39,034 nucleotides of DNA from Sulfuricaulis sp. (lineage in GTDB: Bacteria; Pseudomonadota; Gammaproteobacteria; Acidiferrobacterales; Sulfurifustaceae), in assembly GCA_030650525.1 (NCBI GenBank), contig JAUSDQ010000281.1, positions 1-39,034 of the forward strand, given 5' to 3'. The notes beneath the pieces were generated by a model that saw only the letters and a program-made list of their open reading frames with translations, did not search any database and was not told where the DNA came from. The position numbers were made by a program, and so were the translations under genes. Below are positions 29,014 through 37,512 of the stretch, in pieces; the first letter of the stretch is position 1, and each line of letters starts with the position of its first letter.

Positions 29014-29430
29014 TCAGCGCTTTTTCAGTATTTTCAGAAATTCCGCCGCCGTCACGATGCGCGTGCTGCCTGCCCGCTTGAGTGACAGCAACCCGCGTCG
29101 GTCACCGGTGACGAGGTAATCGGCCTTGCCTTCGATGGCCATGGCGATCACCGGGTTGTCCTGCGGGTCCCGGGACAGATCCACCTCGGGCAATTCCGTC
29201 AACACGATTGCGTGCCGCTTGAGACCGTTGACGAGATTACCGGCCTCGGTGGGCCTGAGGAATTTTTTGACTCGCTCATAACGGCTGGCCCGGCGGAATT
29301 CCTCAAGCTGCCACATCGAGGTGATGAGCGTGAAGCGCTTCTTGCGCCATGTCTGATAGACCCGGTCCGGTGATGTGTCGGCGGTGATCAACGCCGCGAT
29401 CAGGATGCCGGTATCGAGGACGACCCGCAT
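29014..29430 (-). CDS. PIN-domain toxin (putative RNase)
   Basis: 138 residues of the PIN family type often named 'putative toxin-antitoxin system toxin component'. Acidic active-site residues appear in VLDTGILIAAL (D6), WQLEEFRRA and the pairs DPQDN and VTGDRRGL. It is expected to cut RNA using Mg2+. The start at 29430 lies five bases after the stop of the ribbon-helix-helix gene, giving an antitoxin-first TA operon. The target RNA is unknown. Confidence 0.87.
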   Translation of the reverse strand: MRVVLDTGILIAALITADTSPDRVYQTWRKKRFTLITSMWQLEEFRRASRYERVKKFLRPTEAGNLVNGLKRHAIVLTELPEVDLSRDPQDNPVIAMAIEGKADYLVTGDRRGLLSLKRAGSTRIVTAAEFLKILKKR

Positions 29431-29435
29431 CGGGT

Positions 29436-29663
29436 TCAGTGCGCGCCGAGGGCCTCTTCGATCGCCTCCAGAATCTCTTTCTGGGAGTGGCTGCGATTGC
29501 GTTTCTTGACGCCCTCCACGGTGAGCTCGAACAGCCGCGCCTGGACCGCTTCTTCTACGAAGCGGGAGATGTCGCCCTTCTTGCTGCCTCGGCGAGCGAG
29601 GTAGGTGCGCAAGGCGCGATCGGTGGACTCGGGCACGACGACAGACCAGCGGATATTACTCAT
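29436..29663 (-). CDS. Ribbon-helix-helix-like antitoxin
   Basis: 75 residues from ATG 29663; the frame is open further upstream but runs into the operator. The N-terminal MSNIRWSVVVPESTDRALRT has the strand and helix pattern of RHH DNA-binding proteins (beta strand RWSVVVPE, helix TDRALRTYLARRG), followed by GDISRFVEEAVQARLFEL, the second helix. The C-terminal part should bind the toxin. It is expected to neutralise the PIN toxin and repress the operon through the palindrome at 29684-29713. Confidence 0.8.
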   Translation of the reverse strand: MSNIRWSVVVPESTDRALRTYLARRGSKKGDISRFVEEAVQARLFELTVEGVKKRNRSHSQKEILEAIEEALGAH

Positions 29664-29683
29664 GAGGAGCCTCGGACCAAAAC

Positions 29684-29713
29684 GGTTGATATGATGATAT
29701 GCGTATATCAACC
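29684..29713 (-). promoter_or_regulatory. Palindromic operator of the toxin-antitoxin operon
   Basis: GGTTGATAT (29684-29692) and ATATCAACC (29705-29713) are perfect 9-base inverted arms around a 12-base AT-rich spacer, 21 bases upstream of the antitoxin ATG. A typical place for RHH antitoxin autorepression. Confidence 0.7.
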
Positions 29714-29740
29714 TATCCGCAAGTCTGGCACGGAGGGTGG

Positions 29741-30802
29741 TTAACAGCAGGACCCACCGGGGGCGGCACGGTTCTCCGGGACGGCGGCGGCAGGTTTTGG
29801 TTCGCAATCGAACAGGCCATAGTGAACACGGGTATCGCCGATGACTTTGAAATGCGGCGCGTAGCGCGTTTGGCTCAGCATCGCGGCGGTATTGCCGCAG
29901 ACCGGCTGCGGTTGACCCGTTTCAAACAGGTGATGATCGTCCAGAACGAAACCGTGCGGCTGTTCCGCGACGGTGCCGAGATAATGGGCCACCTGCCCGA
30001 AATCCTCGCAGCGGTCCTCGAGGTCGAGCTTGAAGGCGCGCACGGTGAGCGAATGGAAACCGATCATGCCGGTTTTTTGTTCGACGGCGGGATCGGTGAG
30101 CGCGAGTTTTGAGTTACTGACGATCCGGTGGTCGAGGCAGCCGACCCCGGCGAGCAGCCGCCGGAAATCCTCGATGTAGAGCGCGCCGCCCAGACACTCG
30201 CCCAGCAGCACCGGGTCTTCGGCGAGTGGCGGCGGGATTCTGCGGTCGGCAAACACGTCGGAGAAATACAGCTCACCGCCCGGCTTGAGCACGCGGAAGA
30301 TTTCCGCAAACACGCGCTGCTTGTCCGGCGAGAGATTGATGACGCAATTGGAAACCACGACGTCGACCGAGTCGTTTTCGATGCCGAGACTTTTCAGGTC
30401 CTCGATATATCCCGACAGGAATTCGACGTTGGGTTGCGCGAAGCCGAATTTTTCCATGTGATACCCGACGTGACGGCGGGCGGTGTCGAGCTGTTCCGGC
30501 GTCATGTCCACGCCGATGACGCGGCCGGCGGGACCGACCAGCTTGGAAAGAATAAAGCAGTCCCTGCCCGAACCCGACCCCAGATCGAGCACCGTCCGGC
30601 CCGTCAGTTCGGGCGGGATCGGTGAGCCGCAGCCATAGAACCGGGCGACGACATCAGGGTGAATGTCCTTGAGAATTTCCCGAATCGGCGCCGCGAGCGA
30701 CGCGCCGGCGCAACAAACGCTGGTTTTCAAATCCTGGTTCGTCTTGAGCACCCGCCCGTAATAATTCCGTACGCTGTCGAGCGTTCCAATGTTGCCGTTC
30801 AT
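29741..30802 (-). CDS. arsM: Arsenite S-adenosylmethyltransferase
   Basis: 353 residues from ATG 30802, with GGAGATTGAAT upstream. ArsM methylates As(III) using SAM. SAM motif I is VLDLGSGSGRDCFILSKLVG at 71-90. Four cysteines fall at C30, C58, C153 and C203; the first and last spacings (28 and 50) equal those between C44-C72 and C174-C224 of CmArsM, the As(III) binders. The protein ends in SCC. No arsR, arsB or arsC is nearby. It is the last gene of the multihaem cytochrome operon, three bases after another methyltransferase. Confidence 0.9.
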   Translation of the reverse strand: MNGNIGTLDSVRNYYGRVLKTNQDLKTSVCCAGASLAAPIREILKDIHPDVVARFYGCGSPIPPELTGRTVLDLGSGSGRDCFILSKLVGPAGRVIGVDMTPEQLDTARRHVGYHMEKFGFAQPNVEFLSGYIEDLKSLGIENDSVDVVVSNCVINLSPDKQRVFAEIFRVLKPGGELYFSDVFADRRIPPPLAEDPVLLGECLGGALYIEDFRRLLAGVGCLDHRIVSNSKLALTDPAVEQKTGMIGFHSLTVRAFKLDLEDRCEDFGQVAHYLGTVAEQPHGFVLDDHHLFETGQPQPVCGNTAAMLSQTRYAPHFKVIGDTRVHYGLFDCEPKPAAAVPENRAAPGGSCC

Positions 30803-30804
30803 AT

Positions 30805-31488
30805 TCAATCTCCGTTTTCGTGTCGCAACCGATTTTCCGAAATCACTTCGCCATGGTCCGGTTTGCGCAAGACCACCGCCAGGAACGCGCCCCACGGCAA
30901 CACGCCGGGGAGCACCGCCTCGGCCGCGCGCGCGAATGCGCTGCCGCCGGGCATGAATATGGCGCTGCGTACCGTGATCTGCGGCGCGGGCTCGAGTTGC
31001 CACGCCCAACGCCGGACTTCCGCCGGTGTATCCCAGCGCGCACCGCGATAGGCGCCGCGGCCGCGCTTCTGCCGATAGAGCAGGCTGCGGCGGTTGAGTA
31101 GCCCGAGTAGAACTGCGTGCCGCGCCACGCGCCACATCTCCCGCAAGGCCCGCTCGGGATCGGCGATGAAACACAAACTGGTCACCGCCGTGACATAGTC
31201 GTAGGCATAATCGCCGAAGGGAAGCCCGGTTCCCGTACCGAGCAGGTAGCTTACTCCGCCGCCGAGGCCACGTGCATGTTCCAGCATCGCCGGGTCCGGG
31301 TCGAGCCCGGTGACCTGCAGACCGGCGGCGGCGAAACGGCGGCTGAAATGGCCCGTGCCGCAACCGACATCGAGCAGCGTGGCGCCGGCCGGCGGTTCCA
31401 GCAGCCGCCTCATCAAGTCGAATTCGCGGCCGGCGATCCAGCTTCCGCGTGCGGTTTGGTACCACGCCTCGTACTCGCCCGGGTTCAT
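30805..31488 (-). CDS. Class I SAM-dependent methyltransferase (UbiE-like), substrate unknown
   Basis: 227 residues from ATG 31488, which overlaps the pentahaem cytochrome stop as ATGA. A longer frame begins at 31620 but is shadow sequence. SAM motif I is LLDVGCGTGHFSRRFAAAGL, then LDPDPAMLEHARG (acidic motif II), PFGDYAYDYVTAVTSLCFI and ERALREMWRVARHAVLLGLLN. This is a Methyltransf_11 pattern, related to UbiE-type proteins, with no substrate signal. Its coupling between a cytochrome and ArsM suggests a shared pathway, perhaps metalloid or sulfur methylation, but that is inference. Confidence 0.87.
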   Translation of the reverse strand: MNPGEYEAWYQTARGSWIAGREFDLMRRLLEPPAGATLLDVGCGTGHFSRRFAAAGLQVTGLDPDPAMLEHARGLGGGVSYLLGTGTGLPFGDYAYDYVTAVTSLCFIADPERALREMWRVARHAVLLGLLNRRSLLYRQKRGRGAYRGARWDTPAEVRRWAWQLEPAPQITVRSAIFMPGGSAFARAAEAVLPGVLPWGAFLAVVLRKPDHGEVISENRLRHENGD

Positions 31489-32354
31489 CGTTGCCCGGGC
31501 GTGGAGTGGCTGTCCGCCGTGATACGCGCGCGCTCGACAAGGCGGCGGCGCTCCTGTTCCGCGACCACCCCCTTGATGCGAAGCAGGTCGCCATCGAGCG
31601 CCGGTTGCCCGTGCCACCATTGATAGTCCGGTGACTGATGTCCGGTGCCGAGACGCACGTTGCGTGCGTGCGTCTGCATGCCGCCGAACAGCGCATCGAG
31701 CGCCGCGCGATCCGGCGGCGTGAGCGTCGCGCGCTGGTGCGCGACGACATCATGCGCCTCGCGCAGTTTCATGCGCGCGATGTCGAGCATGCGCGCGCCA
31801 ACGCCCGCCTGTTCGGCGATGTAACGCGGCGCGTGACAATCCCCGCACACGGTCATGATAGCCGGGAGCTCCGCGTCCGGTACCGCTGTTTTTGACAAGG
31901 CCAACGGAACCCAGGGCGTGATGGACCGGCTGACATCGTGTTCGCCGGCGTGCAGATGACAGTAGGCGCAGCCGGGCGCGCGGTAATTGCCGCGTGCGAG
32001 CGGTTGCGACCAGTCGTAGCCGGCCTCCTCGAGTCGCATGAGGACGCCATGCTTCGAAGTGGCGTAGCTGTGCACGACCGCACGATTTAGTTTTTCATGG
32101 CAACCCACGCAGGCGCTATCGCGGCGGGCGCGCGCGAGGCTGCCGGCGTGCACGGTGCCGTGACAGGCAACGCAATCGGCCTTCGGGACGGTACGCGCGT
32201 GGTTGCTCGCGCGCCAGGCGGCGATGAGTTTCGCGTCGCGGCTCGCGTGACAGCTCAGGCATTGTGCATTCGTGAATTGCCCGGCCGGCGGCTTTTCACC
32301 TGCCATGGCGAGCGCCGGTAACAGAATGAGCAGCAGGGAACAGAGCCCACGCAT
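31485..32354 (-). CDS. Pentahaem c-type cytochrome, HAO-related paralogue
   Basis: 289 residues with a signal peptide (about 1-18). Five CxxCH sites: CLSCH 32, CVACH 61, CVGCH 82, CAYCH 129, CGDCH 170. Its segments parallel the octahaem cytochrome encoded just upstream: WRASNHA versus WRASRHA after haem 1, and DWSQPLARGNYRAPGCAYCH versus DWSKPLAKGNYATPTCAYCH near the last haems. By this alignment it lacks the octahaem protein's haems 3 to 5. The start shares one base with the previous stop (TGATG). Expected periplasmic electron carrier or partner of the octahaem protein. Confidence 0.88.
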   Translation of the reverse strand: MRGLCSLLLILLPALAMAGEKPPAGQFTNAQCLSCHASRDAKLIAAWRASNHARTVPKADCVACHGTVHAGSLARARRDSACVGCHEKLNRAVVHSYATSKHGVLMRLEEAGYDWSQPLARGNYRAPGCAYCHLHAGEHDVSRSITPWVPLALSKTAVPDAELPAIMTVCGDCHAPRYIAEQAGVGARMLDIARMKLREAHDVVAHQRATLTPPDRAALDALFGGMQTHARNVRLGTGHQSPDYQWWHGQPALDGDLLRIKGVVAEQERRRLVERARITADSHSTPGQR

Positions 32355-33712
32355 CAATTGTGCTCCCGATTGTGGCGCGTGTACTCGCCATCGAGCCACA
32401 GGCGGCCCGGGTCGGCGCGCCGGCCGAGCATTTTTTTCTCGACCGCGCCCTGTGTGCGCAAGGCACCAGCCTTGGTTTCGATGCCGGCGAGCGCACGGTC
32501 GAGATCCGAATGCCAGCGCTTTACCCCCGCGTCGTCGTTGTGGGCGGCGGACTTGTAGGCGCTGAGGCTCGCGAAGTACCACATCTCGAAGTAATCGCGC
32601 TCGATCGGCGAGACGTTGTAAAACGCCGAGGACTGGCCGTCGAGATAGCCAATGCGCGCATGCGGGAAGAAATTTTCCATCATGTCCACCGGGTAAGGTG
32701 GCCGCTCCTTCGCGCCTGGGTACAACAGGTCTTTCGCGCGCAGATCCTTGAGCAGATTCTCGGCCTTGTAGAGCTTGGTCCACGCCTGTTTGCGTTCGCG
32801 ATCGAGGCCCTTGAGTTGCTCCGCCGACCATGCAGCGTCATGGCAATCGCCGCATACCTTGACCCAGGCGGCACGGCGTACCTCGTTGCCGGAGGTGTTC
32901 GGATTCACCTCCTGCAGGCCGAATTTCCAGATCGTCTTGTCCGCGACCTGATGATTACCGTTATGCAGGTGGCAGTAGGCGCAGGTGGGTGTGGCGTAGT
33001 TGCCCTTGGCGAGCGGCTTGCTCCAGTCCTGCTTCGCGCTCTCCGCAAGATACTTCTTGCCATGCGCTGAGGCGAAATAGCTGTCGTCGTCCGGATGCGG
33101 CGGGCCGCTGTGGCAGGTGACGCAGGCTTCGGGCCGGCGCGCCTCGGCGGCGCTGAAGCGGTGGCGGGTATGGCAGGAGTCGCACTTGGTCGCGACCGAG
33201 TGGCACAGCAGACAGGCTGCGACCTCGGCCTTGGGCTTGTCGGCGAAATGCTTGGCGTCCACCGCGCGTTCCATCGCCAGGGCATGACTCGGGAAGCCGT
33301 AGCGCTTCTCGTCCAGAAACTGCGTGACGCGATGCTCGTGGCACTGCGCGCAGACCTTGGGTGTGGGCATGTGCAGCGCCTGATGATTTGTACCGTGGCA
33401 CGCGGAACAGTACACCGTCTCCCGGCCTTGGCCGGGATTCGCGTGCCGGCTGGCGCGCCAGTCGTTAACAATGCCGGGTGTGATGGCGGTATGGCAGGCG
33501 ACGCACTCCTCACCCTTGAACTCGCCTTGCACGGTTTGCACCGATTTATAGAAATGATCCGGATCCCAGTAGGCCTGGACCGGCTCGGGTTTCCATTCGC
33601 GCGAATACAGACCGGCGCCCGGTCCGCTCTTGTTCCAATAGACATAGGCATAACCCGCGGGAATCGCGAGTAGCGTAATCGCCAGCGTGACCCAGATGTA
33701 GCGGCGGCGCAT
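32354..33712 (-). CDS. Octahaem cytochrome c, hydroxylamine-oxidoreductase-like
   Basis: 452 residues with an N-terminal membrane anchor (about 5-25). Eight CxxCH sites: 70, 102, 121, 167, 177, 197, 244, 287 (CVACH, CSACH, CAQCH, CLLCH, CDSCH, CVTCH, CAYCH, CGDCH). CLLCHSVATKCDSCHTRHRF and the PEACVTCHSGPPHP stretch are the central layout of the HAO family. In HAO the fourth haem is the catalytic P460, crosslinked to a Tyr; Tyr residues at 356, 365, 374 and 379 lie in the matching C-terminal part, so the crosslink cannot be ruled in or out. It could oxidise or reduce small nitrogen or sulfur compounds. It is followed by its pentahaem paralogue. Confidence 0.87.
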   Translation of the reverse strand: MRRRYIWVTLAITLLAIPAGYAYVYWNKSGPGAGLYSREWKPEPVQAYWDPDHFYKSVQTVQGEFKGEECVACHTAITPGIVNDWRASRHANPGQGRETVYCSACHGTNHQALHMPTPKVCAQCHEHRVTQFLDEKRYGFPSHALAMERAVDAKHFADKPKAEVAACLLCHSVATKCDSCHTRHRFSAAEARRPEACVTCHSGPPHPDDDSYFASAHGKKYLAESAKQDWSKPLAKGNYATPTCAYCHLHNGNHQVADKTIWKFGLQEVNPNTSGNEVRRAAWVKVCGDCHDAAWSAEQLKGLDRERKQAWTKLYKAENLLKDLRAKDLLYPGAKERPPYPVDMMENFFPHARIGYLDGQSSAFYNVSPIERDYFEMWYFASLSAYKSAAHNDDAGVKRWHSDLDRALAGIETKAGALRTQGAVEKKMLGRRADPGRLWLDGEYTRHNREHN

Positions 33713-33715
33713 GGT

Positions 33716-33964
33716 TCAGCCCCGCGGGTTTTTGTTTTTGCCTTCGCGGTGGCGGCGGTAACCCCAGCGCAATGCGCCGAGTGCAGCCAGTGCGAAGAAC
33801 GGCCCGAGTGCCAGCCACAGCCCGCGTCCGTTGTCGTCCGGTGCTTTCGGTGTGACAGTTGCCGCCGTCGGCGACGAGGGGGCGCCGAGCACATGTTCCT
33901 TGGTGTGATGCGCGCGCGCGGGAATCGCGAAGACGAATAATAGGATGAATAGCGCGCGCCGCAT
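33716..33964 (-). CDS. Small exported, membrane-anchored protein
   Basis: 82 residues. A signal peptide (RRALFILLFVFAIPARA, cut near 18) precedes a His-rich start (HHTKEHVLG), a Pro/Thr linker and one C-terminal membrane helix (about 49-67) with a basic tail (RRHREGKNKNPRG). No family is recognised. It lies three bases from the octahaem gene and two from the fusion gene, so all three are surely cotranscribed. A small subunit or assembly helper of the complex is plausible. The HH near the mature N-terminus could bind metal or haem. Confidence 0.75.
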   Translation of the reverse strand: MRRALFILLFVFAIPARAHHTKEHVLGAPSSPTAATVTPKAPDDNGRGLWLALGPFFALAALGALRWGYRRHREGKNKNPRG

Positions 33965-33966
33965 GT

Positions 33967-36333
33967 TCAGTGCTCCGCGGCGGCCGTGGCCGGGCGTGGC
34001 GCTGCCGTCGCTAACGGGCCGCGCAACGCCGCCAGCGCGCGCGTGGCCAGCCGGAAACTTTCGAGAATGCCTTGCGCCGCCGCGCGGCCGTCAGCCATCG
34101 CGGTCACCACCAGGTCCGGACCGCGCGCATTGTCCCCACCGGCGTAAATTTTGGGATGAGTCGTGCGCCCGTGTGCGTCCACGCGGATACGTCCATGCGC
34201 GTCGGTCTCGACGCCGAGCGTGGCCAGCCACGCGGGTGGCTGTGCAACGAAGCCGAAGGCGAGGATCACCGCATCGCAGGCCTCGGCGCGCTCGCCGTCG
34301 GGCGTCTGGAAGCGCACCGCCGCGACCGCGTCCGTGCCGATGATTTCAAGCGGATAATGCCGGAAGCGGAAGGCCACGCCTTCCTCGCGCGCCGCCTTCA
34401 GCTCGCGCGGCGAAGCGCGCAGGCTCTCCGCGGCGGCGCGTGCGCAGACCGTGACCGCCGCGCCCGCGCGCCGCGCCGTGCGCGCGCAGTCCATCGCGGT
34501 GTCGCCGCCGCCCAGCACGATCACGTGCTTCGCTCGGTAAGCCGTCGATGGCTTTAGGTAATCGAGCGCGGCGATGACGCCACGCCGTTTCCGGCCCGGC
34601 AATGCAATCTCGCGCGGTGTCTGTGTGCCGGTGGCGAGGAATACCGCATCGTAACCATCAATGAGCCGGTGCATCGCCGGTCCGTCCACCTCGACGCCGA
34701 GTTGAAATTCGATGCCCGCCGTTTCCAGCAAGTCGCGGCGCGTTGCGAGCGCCGCGCGGTCGAGCTTGAACGGCGGCACGCCTTGGGCAAGCAGCCCGCC
34801 GATCTCGGCGTGCCGGTCGAAAACAGTCACCGCGCAGCCTTCGCGGTTCAGGAAATCCGCGCAGGCAAGCCCGGCCGGGCCGGCGCCGATGACGGCGATG
34901 CGCCGGCTGTTGTGCGCTGTTGGCGCCGCCGGCCGCCACCCATCTTCTAGGGCAATCTCGGTAACGTAGCGCTCGATTGCTCCGATGGTAACGGCACCGT
35001 TCTCCCTCGCGCGCGTGCACGCGCCTTCGCATAGCCGGTGCTGCGGGCAGAGCCTTCCGCAGACCTCGGGCAGCGTGCTCGTGGCGTGCACGATCTCGGC
35101 GGCGGCGGTGAACTCGCCTTTCGCTGCGGCCTGCATCCAGTCGGGGATGCGGTTGGTAAGCGGACAGCCGCTGCGGCAGCCGGGCGCCCCGCAGTCGAGG
35201 CAGCGCGCCGCCTGCCGCTGGATCTCGGCGAGCGGCGGACGCACGTATATCTCGTTGGTGTCGCACACACGCTCTCCGGCCGGCCGTGCCGTCGGTTCGA
35301 TGCGCGGCACCGGCTCCATGGGAACTTGCTTCATCAGATGGCTGCCGTTCTGGACGAGCTTCGGGCGGAAGAGATTGCGCACGTCGCGGATCTCGAGCGC
35401 GTCGGTCGGACACGACACCACGCAGCGTCCGCAACCCATGCAGTCCTCGATACCGGTGATGCGCCCGAATTGTTTCCCCTGTTCCCACACCGGGATGCCC
35501 ATGTCGCACACCTGCTCGCAGCGCCGGCAGTCGTTGCATTTGTCCTGGTCCATTTGGATGCCGTAGAAGCCGGCGTGGTTGAGCAGGCCGAAGGTCGCGC
35601 CGTACGGACACAGGTAGCGGCAATAGAAGCGGTTGCCGGTGATCGGCGCGACGAAGAACGTGCCGAAGTAGGTGAGCCCGATGATAAGATAGAACAGTCC
35701 CACGAAACTTATGGTCCAGGAATTCGGCGGGTACTGAGTCACGACCATCACGCCGACGTAGAAAACGAAGAAGAACCACTTGCTGTGGCGCAGCCGCCAC
35801 GCCCATTTGCCGCGCACCGTGCGGTCGCGGAAGGCAAAGCCCACGGTCTCGCGGATGCCGACGCAGGGGCAACCCCAGCCACAGATAACCCGCCGCCCGA
35901 AAAGAAACACGGCCGCGAGCACGAGAAAAAAAGTGATGGTACCGGGGGCGTGGATTGACGGGAAAATCGGCTGTCCCCAGAGATAACCGACGTAGGGCTC
36001 GAACATCGGCCACAACCAGGGGGTGAGCCACCAGAGCACCGTGACCAGGGCGACCAACACGGTGAGGCGCAGGCGCGTGTAACGGTTCTGTTCCGCATAA
36101 ATGCGCCAGAGGCCAAACGCGAGAATGATCGCGTACTCGGTGTAGCGGTTGAGCCAGATCGGATTGTCGAACAGGAACAGCCAGGTTTCGTTGAGCCAGC
36201 CGATGAAGGCGAGGGTGAAGGCCGCCATGCTCAGCCACTGTACGGCTTGGCCGTAGCGGCGCGGCAGACTTTCCTGCTCCGCGGCCGCGGCGCGGCGCGG
36301 CTGGTAACGGATCGGATGGATCGTGGCGGCCAT
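33967..36333 (-). CDS. Fusion of NapH/RdxA-like membrane iron-sulfur protein with GltD-like FAD/NAD(P)H oxidoreductase
   Basis: 788 residues. The N-terminal half has about six membrane helices (about 32-52, 64-80, 88-108, 130-148, 185-202, 208-232), CGWGCPC at 151-157, CRYLCP at 238-243, and two 4Fe-4S sets: C266/C269/C272/C276 and C298/C301/C304/C308. The C-terminal half matches the GltD/glutamate synthase small subunit and related enzymes: cysteine sets C378-C390 and C425-C439, FAD motif GAGPAG at 483-488, NAD(P)-binding GGGDTAMDC at 608-616. It could feed NAD(P)H electrons through flavin and iron-sulfur centres to quinone or cytochrome. Start chosen at ATG 36333; AAGGAG is about 15 bases upstream. 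Confidence 0.9.
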   Translation of the reverse strand: MAATIHPIRYQPRRAAAAEQESLPRRYGQAVQWLSMAAFTLAFIGWLNETWLFLFDNPIWLNRYTEYAIILAFGLWRIYAEQNRYTRLRLTVLVALVTVLWWLTPWLWPMFEPYVGYLWGQPIFPSIHAPGTITFFLVLAAVFLFGRRVICGWGCPCVGIRETVGFAFRDRTVRGKWAWRLRHSKWFFFVFYVGVMVVTQYPPNSWTISFVGLFYLIIGLTYFGTFFVAPITGNRFYCRYLCPYGATFGLLNHAGFYGIQMDQDKCNDCRRCEQVCDMGIPVWEQGKQFGRITGIEDCMGCGRCVVSCPTDALEIRDVRNLFRPKLVQNGSHLMKQVPMEPVPRIEPTARPAGERVCDTNEIYVRPPLAEIQRQAARCLDCGAPGCRSGCPLTNRIPDWMQAAAKGEFTAAAEIVHATSTLPEVCGRLCPQHRLCEGACTRARENGAVTIGAIERYVTEIALEDGWRPAAPTAHNSRRIAVIGAGPAGLACADFLNREGCAVTVFDRHAEIGGLLAQGVPPFKLDRAALATRRDLLETAGIEFQLGVEVDGPAMHRLIDGYDAVFLATGTQTPREIALPGRKRRGVIAALDYLKPSTAYRAKHVIVLGGGDTAMDCARTARRAGAAVTVCARAAAESLRASPRELKAAREEGVAFRFRHYPLEIIGTDAVAAVRFQTPDGERAEACDAVILAFGFVAQPPAWLATLGVETDAHGRIRVDAHGRTTHPKIYAGGDNARGPDLVVTAMADGRAAAQGILESFRLATRALAALRGPLATAAPRPATAAAEH

Positions 36334-36357: not shown

Positions 36358-37512
36358 TCAGAACCATTTGAACAACCAAAACTTCTCATAAGCCACCTTG
36401 CCGAGGTGCCGCAGCCGGCTGGGCGGATAAAGCGCGATCTGGGGTTTCGGTTCGGCGTAGAAATTTCCGCTGCCAAAACCCGCGCGGCCGTCGCCGATTT
36501 CAACGAAGCATTCACCGTGCCCCTGGAATGTTTGCGCATCGCCGTGGCCGGTAATGGCGCGGGCAATGTTGTGCGCGATGACCTCGGCCTCTTCATGAGC
36601 GAATACACCGGCCTTGGGCAAAGGCTTGCCGATGGCCAGCGGGATGCCGGTCACGTCGCCGATCGCGTAGACGCCGGGATATTTCGTTGCGAGAGTGCCG
36701 CGATCGACCGGTATCCAACCGCTTTCGCCGCACAGGCCGGCTTCGCGCACCACCTGCGGCGCGCGATGCGGTGGAACATAAGCCAGCAGATCGAAGCTCG
36801 CCGTGGTGTTGTTGGTGAAGTAAATCCGCCGCGCCTGCGGATCGATTTTGGCGACCGCCTGTTCGGGGTGGTAGGCGATGCCCTTGCTTTCGACCATCTG
36901 CCGCACCATGGCGGAAACTTCCGGACCGGCCACGCCCATGGGTCCGGGTTCGGGCGAGTAAAGGTCGATGGTGACGCGATCACGCACGCCGCGCTGGCGC
37001 AGGTCGGCCTCCAGCAGCATCGCTGCCTCGTACGGCGCCGCCGGGCATTTGAAGGGAACGCCGCTGACCAGAACCACCAGCCGACCTTGTTGGAAATTTA
37101 CGCGCGCCGCGCGCAAGGACTCCGCACCGGCGAGGGTGTAGAAGTCATGCCCGGCCTGTGCCAGGCCGGGGATGGTTTCCGGCGCAAACTCCGCGCCCAG
37201 CGCGATGACAAGATAGTCGCCGGTCAATTCGATTCCATTCACCTTGACCGCGCGCGCCTGGGGATCGATGCGCTCGACGTTTCCTCGTATCAGCTCTATG
37301 CCCCGCTTCTTCAGCGCCTCGAGCGGACGCGAGATACGCTTCGGCGTGCGCTGGCCGGTCATGAGCCAGAGCAGGGAAGGTGGAAAGACATAACGTTCCT
37401 CGCGTTCCACCAGCACCACCCGATGCGCGCGCGGCAATGCCTTGCGCAGCAGACTCGCGGCGACAATGCCGCCGATTCCAGCGCCGAGAATCATGATCGT
37501 CTTGGAGTTCAT
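36358..37512 (-). CDS. SQR-like FAD-dependent oxidoreductase
   Basis: 384 residues from ATG 37512, with GGAGGGAACTG upstream. N-terminal FAD motif ILGAGIGGIVAA at 9-20, YVFPPSLLWLMTG, a central ALGAE, C156 in VPFKCPAAPYE, and GDVTGI at 285-290 for the FAD-binding C-terminal region. C156 and C335 fall about where SQR and flavocytochrome c sulfide dehydrogenase carry their redox pair; C261 is a third. Sulfide:quinone oxidoreductase or a related enzyme is likely. It sits 24 bases upstream of the membrane fusion and downstream of DsrE, supporting a sulfur role. Exact activity not shown. Confidence 0.87.
   Translation of the reverse strand: MNSKTIMILGAGIGGIVAASLLRKALPRAHRVVLVEREERYVFPPSLLWLMTGQRTPKRISRPLEALKKRGIELIRGNVERIDPQARAVKVNGIELTGDYLVIALGAEFAPETIPGLAQAGHDFYTLAGAESLRAARVNFQQGRLVVLVSGVPFKCPAAPYEAAMLLEADLRQRGVRDRVTIDLYSPEPGPMGVAGPEVSAMVRQMVESKGIAYHPEQAVAKIDPQARRIYFTNNTTASFDLLAYVPPHRAPQVVREAGLCGESGWIPVDRGTLATKYPGVYAIGDVTGIPLAIGKPLPKAGVFAHEEAEVIAHNIARAITGHGDAQTFQGHGECFVEIGDGRAGFGSGNFYAEPKPQIALYPPSRLRHLGKVAYEKFWLFKWF

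Follow-up and report, generated by a model that had tools for sequence, protein, structure and literature searches.

A conserved octahaem-pentahaem gene set beside a NapH-type membrane protein in Sulfuricaulis and other bacteria: a possible split reductive hydroxylamine oxidoreductase

In nitrification, anammox and ammonification, enzymes of the hydroxylamine oxidoreductase (HAO) family determine if nitrite, NO and hydroxylamine undergo oxidation or reduction, and membrane iron-sulfur (FeS) proteins of the NapH/NosR type act in electron transfer. In the oxidative HAOs a tyrosine forms a link with the haem 4 of a different subunit (extracts of PMC12758564); HAOs without this cross-link are taken, in published extracts, as reductive, HAOr slowly reducing nitrite to NO. 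A reductive role in nitrate ammonification was proposed for the HAO of the reverse hydroxylamine:ubiquinone redox module (reverse-HURM) of Nautilia (abstract of PMC3701875), and the octahaem protein BOGUAY_0691 of orange Beggiatoaceae, which are sulfur oxidisers, is described in the extracts of PMC6449678 as HAO-type with nitrite-reducing activity. We analysed a stretch of 39,034 nucleotides from Sulfuricaulis sp. (contig JAUSDQ010000281.1 of assembly GCA_030650525.1), the whole of which is called the window below, and in which an operon of four minus-strand genes (31485-36333) encodes a NapH/GltD fusion, a small protein, an octahaem protein (OCC) and a pentahaem protein (PHC). We read this operon, tentatively and as something short of probable, as a membrane-anchored, reductive split HAO for the reduction of a nitrogen oxide, which would be fed by quinol or NAD(P)H and whose active site would exist only in the OCC-PHC heteromer.

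OCC carries eight CxxCH motifs in the HAO order behind an N-terminal hydrophobic anchor (residues 6-24) and matches Pfam PF13447 (Multi-haem_cyto) at 4e-40, which places it in the HAO-like octahaem family. Its best relative in the PDB is KsHAO (4n4j, E=8e-75), and a profile alignment with Tyr-type HAOs covers it from one end to the other (E=3e-80). OCC also has the tandem haem 4/5 motif; its score against the hydrazine dehydrogenase (HDH) model NF052343 is 211 bits, below the curated 900. Tyr462 of HDH, which we take to be the cross-link tyrosine in the numbering of that protein, lines up with an OCC stretch whose sequence in the window is D-D-A-G-V-K-R-W (the place was counted from the alignment). 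No cross-link tyrosine stands at this loop of OCC: a tyrosine occurs anywhere in the stretch in just 2 of the 81 aligned rows, and positions 394, 395, 398 and 399 lie at the 90th-99th percentile of variability (entropy over the same rows). At the place of Asp267 of NeHAO, which together with His268 presumably forms a catalytic-type Asp-His pair near haem 4, OCC has Pro205 in 81/81 rows; the adjoining His206 is present in 81/81, and the pair as such is therefore missing. The missing tyrosine and the missing Asp of the pair speak against OCC as an oxidative HAO, HOX or HDH. OCC shares the lack of a cross-link tyrosine with the reductive HAOr type, and the DxxWWxG-type loop which HAOr has in the catalytic chain itself is absent from OCC and was found in PHC. 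Judged by its sequence, OCC seems to have retained the catalytic haem 4 and to have lost its own active-site loop. We also observed that H155 and P204-P205-H206-P207-D208 (window 33089-33250) are invariant in 81/81 rows.

PHC is, by homology, a shortened HAO paralogue of OCC, with five haems and without haem 4. Its residues 239-262 (HQSPDYQWWHGQPALDGDLLRIKG) align on the HAO active-site loop, and the core of this loop (H, P, D, W, W, G) is kept in all of the 73 rows that reach it. The key site is a Trp and not a Tyr (Trp246-Trp247), a W-type loop as in the nitrite-reducing anammox HAOr. PHC was also considered as an NrfA, the pentahaem nitrite reductase, and this identification was rejected. 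Taken together, the two alignments make it appear that OCC and PHC divide the HAO active site between two paralogues. In the mechanism that we propose, an HAO would have been duplicated and complementary losses would have followed, OCC keeping the catalytic haem 4 and PHC keeping a trans-acting loop, of the type that extends, in HAO trimers, from its own subunit to the haem 4 of the adjacent one. We infer that OCC would assemble with PHC into a hetero-oligomer, the Trp246-Trp247 loop of PHC closing the OCC haem-4 site in trans. Electrons would enter from quinol via the NapH-type membrane protein and, in Gamma- and Betaproteobacteria, additionally from NAD(P)H via the fused GltD module, and a periplasmic nitrogen oxide would be reduced in sulfur-oxidising denitrifiers, animal symbionts included; nitrite to NO would be the likeliest reaction, the reduction of NO or hydroxylamine being possible.

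The gene set is conserved. Beyond the genome of the window itself, orthologues of OCC, with identities of 59-84%, were found in 3/59 relatives and 10/274 genomes of the class; contig ends truncate two of them, and among the 15 regions examined NapH or NapH-GltD adjoins OCC in 14 and PHC does so in 12, the remainder being cut by contig ends. A scan of a species collection with a profile of 12 gammaproteobacterial rows found 170 relatives, of which 80, some of them near-identical, were kept. In this set NapH lies upstream of OCC in 70 of the 72 loci having at least 1.5 kb there (the two misses, L055 and L081, show the GltD end alone, the contig starting inside the gene), and PHC lies downstream in 73 of the 75 loci having at least 0.9 kb there. 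This means that the gene order is kept far beyond chance. The relatives of OCC occur in Thiogranum, Thiohalobacter, Thiobacillus, Sulfuritalea, Thiodiazotropha, Lamprocystis and Rhodospirillales, among others, as well as in symbionts of Lamellibrachia and Escarpia, in Magnetococcales and in two metagenome-assembled genomes (MAGs) of Nitrospinota. The suggestion of the earlier note that this is a conserved gene set with unusual HAO partners is thus borne out in Gamma- and Betaproteobacteria, Magnetococcales, Alphaproteobacteria and Nitrospinota MAGs; the contrary outcome that it had named, an order conserved in no other genome, did not occur. In a tree, the 81 OCC rows separate from seven Tyr-type HAOs (support 81/99, not starred), and the OCC of the window pairs with that of a Muproteobacteria MAG (100/100). 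A Magnetaquicoccus protein is placed beside HOX/HDH in the extracts of PMC12758564, which mention neither the gene set nor PHC beside it; presumably it is the same protein as the OCC of locus L127, which comes from that organism.

Some variants of the locus were observed as well. A broken OCC stands beside NapH-GltD in two more genomes of the class, with stops in G090 (L051) and an internal deletion in G319 (L050), which may be either true decay or an assembly error. Genes intervene between OCC and PHC in four Magnetococcales loci (L127, 11347-13261; L126, 7189-8560; L123; L129), and include a TVP38-like membrane protein with a rhodanese-like end, named by eye. Another octahaem family, with the loop DYTHWHG or DYTWWNG, is represented in the class genomes by L034 and L035.

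We then turn to the genes with which OCC occurs, in a sample of 80 chosen genomes (15 OCC carriers and 65 genomes without OCC, taken in handle order and mostly more than 90% complete). G090 was omitted and G319 entered as a carrier; G273 counts as dsrA-positive although its fragments are split and stay below the cut-off, G123 counts as NapA-positive through a fragment, and the dsrA of G089 (371 bits, just under the cut-off) was scored negative. The p-values are uncorrected for kinship or multiple testing. Genes of the cd1 type (marker PF02239) are present in 13/15 carriers vs 12/65 other genomes (Fisher 1.2e-6), NapA in 11/15 vs 7/65 (2.8e-6) and dsrA in 14/15 vs 36/65 (0.007). As PF02239 presumably also matches NirF and NirN, it is to be read as a marker of cd1/haem d1 genes in general. 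The associations hold without G319 (dsrA p=0.013, cd1 3e-6, NapA 9e-6) and within the dsrA-positive genomes (NapA 10/14 vs 5/36, cd1-type 12/14 vs 12/36, again also without G319). NrfA was found in 0/80 genomes, including the 15 carriers, with E. coli as positive control. The co-occurrence with Nap and cd1-type genes favours nitrogen-oxide reduction in sulfur-oxidising denitrifiers; together with the Tyr-less site, it makes a nitrogen oxide, which would be reduced, the likeliest substrate.

Several observations weigh against a split reductive HAO. The residue H401, directly after the degenerate loop of OCC, is retained in 77/81 rows and could serve OCC's own site, and the reductive HAOs are said to carry a His at the key site (extracts of PMC12758564). 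This bears on a rival explanation, according to which OCC is a self-sufficient reductive HAO using H401 or other residues of its own and PHC is only an electron-transfer or docking subunit, comparable to Kustc0457 of HAOr; HAOr does function with a dihaem partner, as far as the extracts tell. We regard this explanation as rather unlikely, because it leaves unexplained that the PHC loop core is kept in 73/73 rows while the OCC loop varies freely. For the split HAO there are further difficulties. The two loci in which PHC is missing downstream of OCC (L125 and L128) are both OCC copies of one Magnetococcales MAG (DH2_bin6), and no PHC lies nearby. No association with NarG is seen (1/15 carriers vs 8/65), cd1-type matches are missing in two carriers (G138 and G265), and an FNR/DNR-type box upstream of NapH was found in 0/62 cases. 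The co-occurrence is confounded by kinship and lifestyle, and in one of the 15 carriers, G319, OCC has an internal deletion, though the associations stay without this genome.

At the membrane end of the operon, the fusion protein has the motifs CGWGCP and CRYLCP and two 4Fe-4S motifs, followed by Fer4_20 and Pyr_redox_2 domains. It scores 75 bits against the NapH model TIGR02163 (curated cut-off 213), and since this is below the cut-off we grade the first part as NapH-like only, though the CxxxCP and 4Fe-4S motifs are present; against the GltD gamma family TIGR01318 it scores 440 bits, below the curated 483, the domain type being the same. Where 2.8 kb or more is available upstream (64 loci), 44 loci have the GltD fusion, 19 have NapH alone (15 in Magnetococcales, 3 in Alphaproteobacteria, 1 in Nitrospinota) and one, L085, has a broken fusion; the fusion is the form of Gamma- and Betaproteobacteria. 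Hence GltD is a non-core part of the gene set. An electron path between the pyridine pool, quinone and the periplasm had been proposed in the earlier note: a route from flavin and FeS centres over the NapH-type protein to the haem proteins is plausible, but its NAD(P)H module is not a general part of it, as the loci with NapH alone make plain. The path could also run the other way, OCC-PHC oxidising a reduced nitrogen (or other) compound, whose electrons NapH/GltD would pass on to quinone and NAD(P)+. The flavin module could work both ways, and some of the carrier groups are known as autotrophs, which need NAD(P)H. Such a direction appears very improbable to us: the key-site Tyr, present in the oxidative HAOs according to the extracts, is missing in OCC and in PHC (Trp). 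To our knowledge, hydrazine is moreover the only known HAO substrate with a potential low enough to reduce NAD+ directly.

The small protein of 82 aa has no match in Pfam or NCBIfam. By BLAST, it resembles the C-terminal membrane end of larger mono- or dihaem cytochromes at the same position of the locus. These one-or-two-haem proteins form a group of 24 loci, in 23 of which they sit before OCC in place of the small protein, while the short haem-less form occurs in 17 loci. It is therefore probable, on this resemblance, that the small protein is a haem-less remnant of a membrane-anchored mono- or dihaem cytochrome.

The features are collected in Table 1. As the earlier note had described, the four adjacent genes are nearly contiguous or overlapping: the successive gaps are of 2 and 3 bases, and OCC and PHC share a 1-base stop/start overlap (TGATG). 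The start of PHC is likely the ATG at 32354 (gene 31485-32354); the open reading frame listed up to 32831 is no more than an open frame. The methyltransferase gene MT1 (start 31488) shares 4 bases with PHC at the stop of the latter, so that the transcription unit probably extends beyond the operon end at 31485.

Table 1. Coordinates of the operon, its loops and its neighbours in the window
Feature	Position	Strand	Size and basis
NapH-type membrane FeS protein + GltD-type FAD/NAD(P)H module	33967..36333	-	788 aa; Pfam, NCBIfam and PDB matches, motifs, position upstream of OCC in relatives
Small protein	33716..33964	-	82 aa; BLAST to C-terminal end of larger haem proteins in the same locus position
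OCC, octahaem HAO-family protein	32354..33712	-	452 aa; 8 CxxCH; PDB matches 4n4j, 6h5l, 6hif, 1fgj
OCC residues 394-401, where HAOs have the active-site loop; degenerate, without Tyr	32509..32532	-	HAO/HDH alignment; entropy over 81 rows
PHC, pentahaem shortened HAO paralogue	31485..32354	-	289 aa; 5 CxxCH
PHC residues 239-262, HQSPDYQWWHGQPALDGDLLRIKG, HAO-type active-site loop	31569..31640	-	Core in 73/73 rows; alignment to HAO loop
MT1, class I methyltransferase, neighbour outside the core	30805..31488	-	Pfam; retained without OCC in G006
ArsM-type methyltransferase, separable neighbour	29741..30802	-	NCBIfam PRK11873 188 bits, below cut-off 263
SQR-like flavoprotein, separable neighbour	36358..37512	-	NF049943 244 bits, below cut-off 525

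Concerning the neighbours, about 400 bases separate the SQR-like gene from the MT1 start/arsM region in the same-genus genome G001, vs 4.9 kb in the window, and G001 is without the block NapH-GltD-small-OCC-PHC and most of MT1; another genome of the genus, G006, has the SQR-like gene, MT1 and arsM without OCC. This means that the block behaves like a single unit of gain or loss and that its neighbours are separable; a co-occurrence with arsM and SQR-like genes, for which the earlier note had suggested a test, does not hold in these genomes. Within 9 kb of OCC, arsM-type genes occur in 18/80 loci and DsrE-like genes in 23/80; a close ArsM is found in 6/15 OCC carriers vs 2/65 non-carriers, both exceptions being the same-genus genomes with arsM and no OCC. 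Near the block, ArsS-type genes (TIGR04167) stand in 8 loci (e.g. L093, 12258-13220) and genes of the arsenosugar glycosyltransferase TIGR04283 in 7 (e.g. L070, 15205-16092), the two named examples scoring above cut-off, which suggests arsenosugar synthesis in these sulfur oxidisers. These counts, with the excess of dsrA among the carriers, would agree with a complex serving sulfur or arsenic chemistry (sulfite, tetrathionate, polysulfide or arsenicals) instead of nitrogen. We judge such a role quite unlikely: OCC has the HAO fold and lies outside the solved sulfite or tetrathionate families among its matches, the arsM, MT1 and SQR-like genes remain without the block in the genus, and the Nap and cd1-type associations survive within dsrA-positive genomes. 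We treat the arsenic and sulfur neighbours as linked but separate genes. A membrane hydroxylase-like gene lies about 5 kb upstream of OCC on the same strand in L118 (1447-2313) and recurs in 31 further loci; it scores 90 bits against the OlsE profile, short of the cut-off 475, and a similar gene lies by MT1/arsM in G006 without OCC. At 29014-29807 of the window (minus strand), a PIN-domain protein (PF13470) stands beside a ribbon-helix-helix protein (PF16762), resembling a toxin-antitoxin pair.

If OCC and PHC do share one site, the HAO family would gain a new architecture, a heteromer of two paralogues, and with it a new way to build a nitrogen-cycle enzyme. This would also hint at an unassigned nitrogen-oxide reaction in sulfur oxidisers such as Thiobacillus, Sulfuritalea, Thiodiazotropha, tubeworm symbionts and Magnetococcales MAGs. 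Among open-licence papers, our searches brought up neither a title nor an abstract that deals with this gene set or with a split HAO.

Finally we compare the locus with the described systems. Among solved sequences, those nearest to OCC are Kuenenia HAO/HOX (4n4j) and hydrazine dehydrogenase (6hif). Both contain the Tyr of the cross-link together with the Asp-His pair, whereas OCC is without the Tyr and without that Asp. The reductive role which we propose is like that of the HAO in the reverse-HURM of Nautilia, but the partner here is NapH-type and not NapC/cM552-type, the Nautilia partner being presumably of the cM552 type. BOGUAY_0691 is likened to OCC by its description, no NapH or PHC partner being named for it in the extracts of PMC6449678. 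The NapH part of the window has the CxxxCP motifs and 4Fe-4S sites common to NapH/NosR-type proteins, and differs from them by the GltD fusion (Gamma- and Betaproteobacteria) and by its HAO-like pair of partners. The anammox HAOr Kustc0457/Kustc0458 (6h5l) resembles our pair in belonging to the HAO family, in having no cross-link Tyr and a small cytochrome partner, and in carrying, like PHC, a Trp at the key position of the loop; its loop, however, is in its own chain, whereas here OCC is without the loop and the shortened paralogue PHC has it, and its partner Kustc0457 is, in the extracts, a dihaem protein, whereas the partners here include NapH or NapH-GltD.

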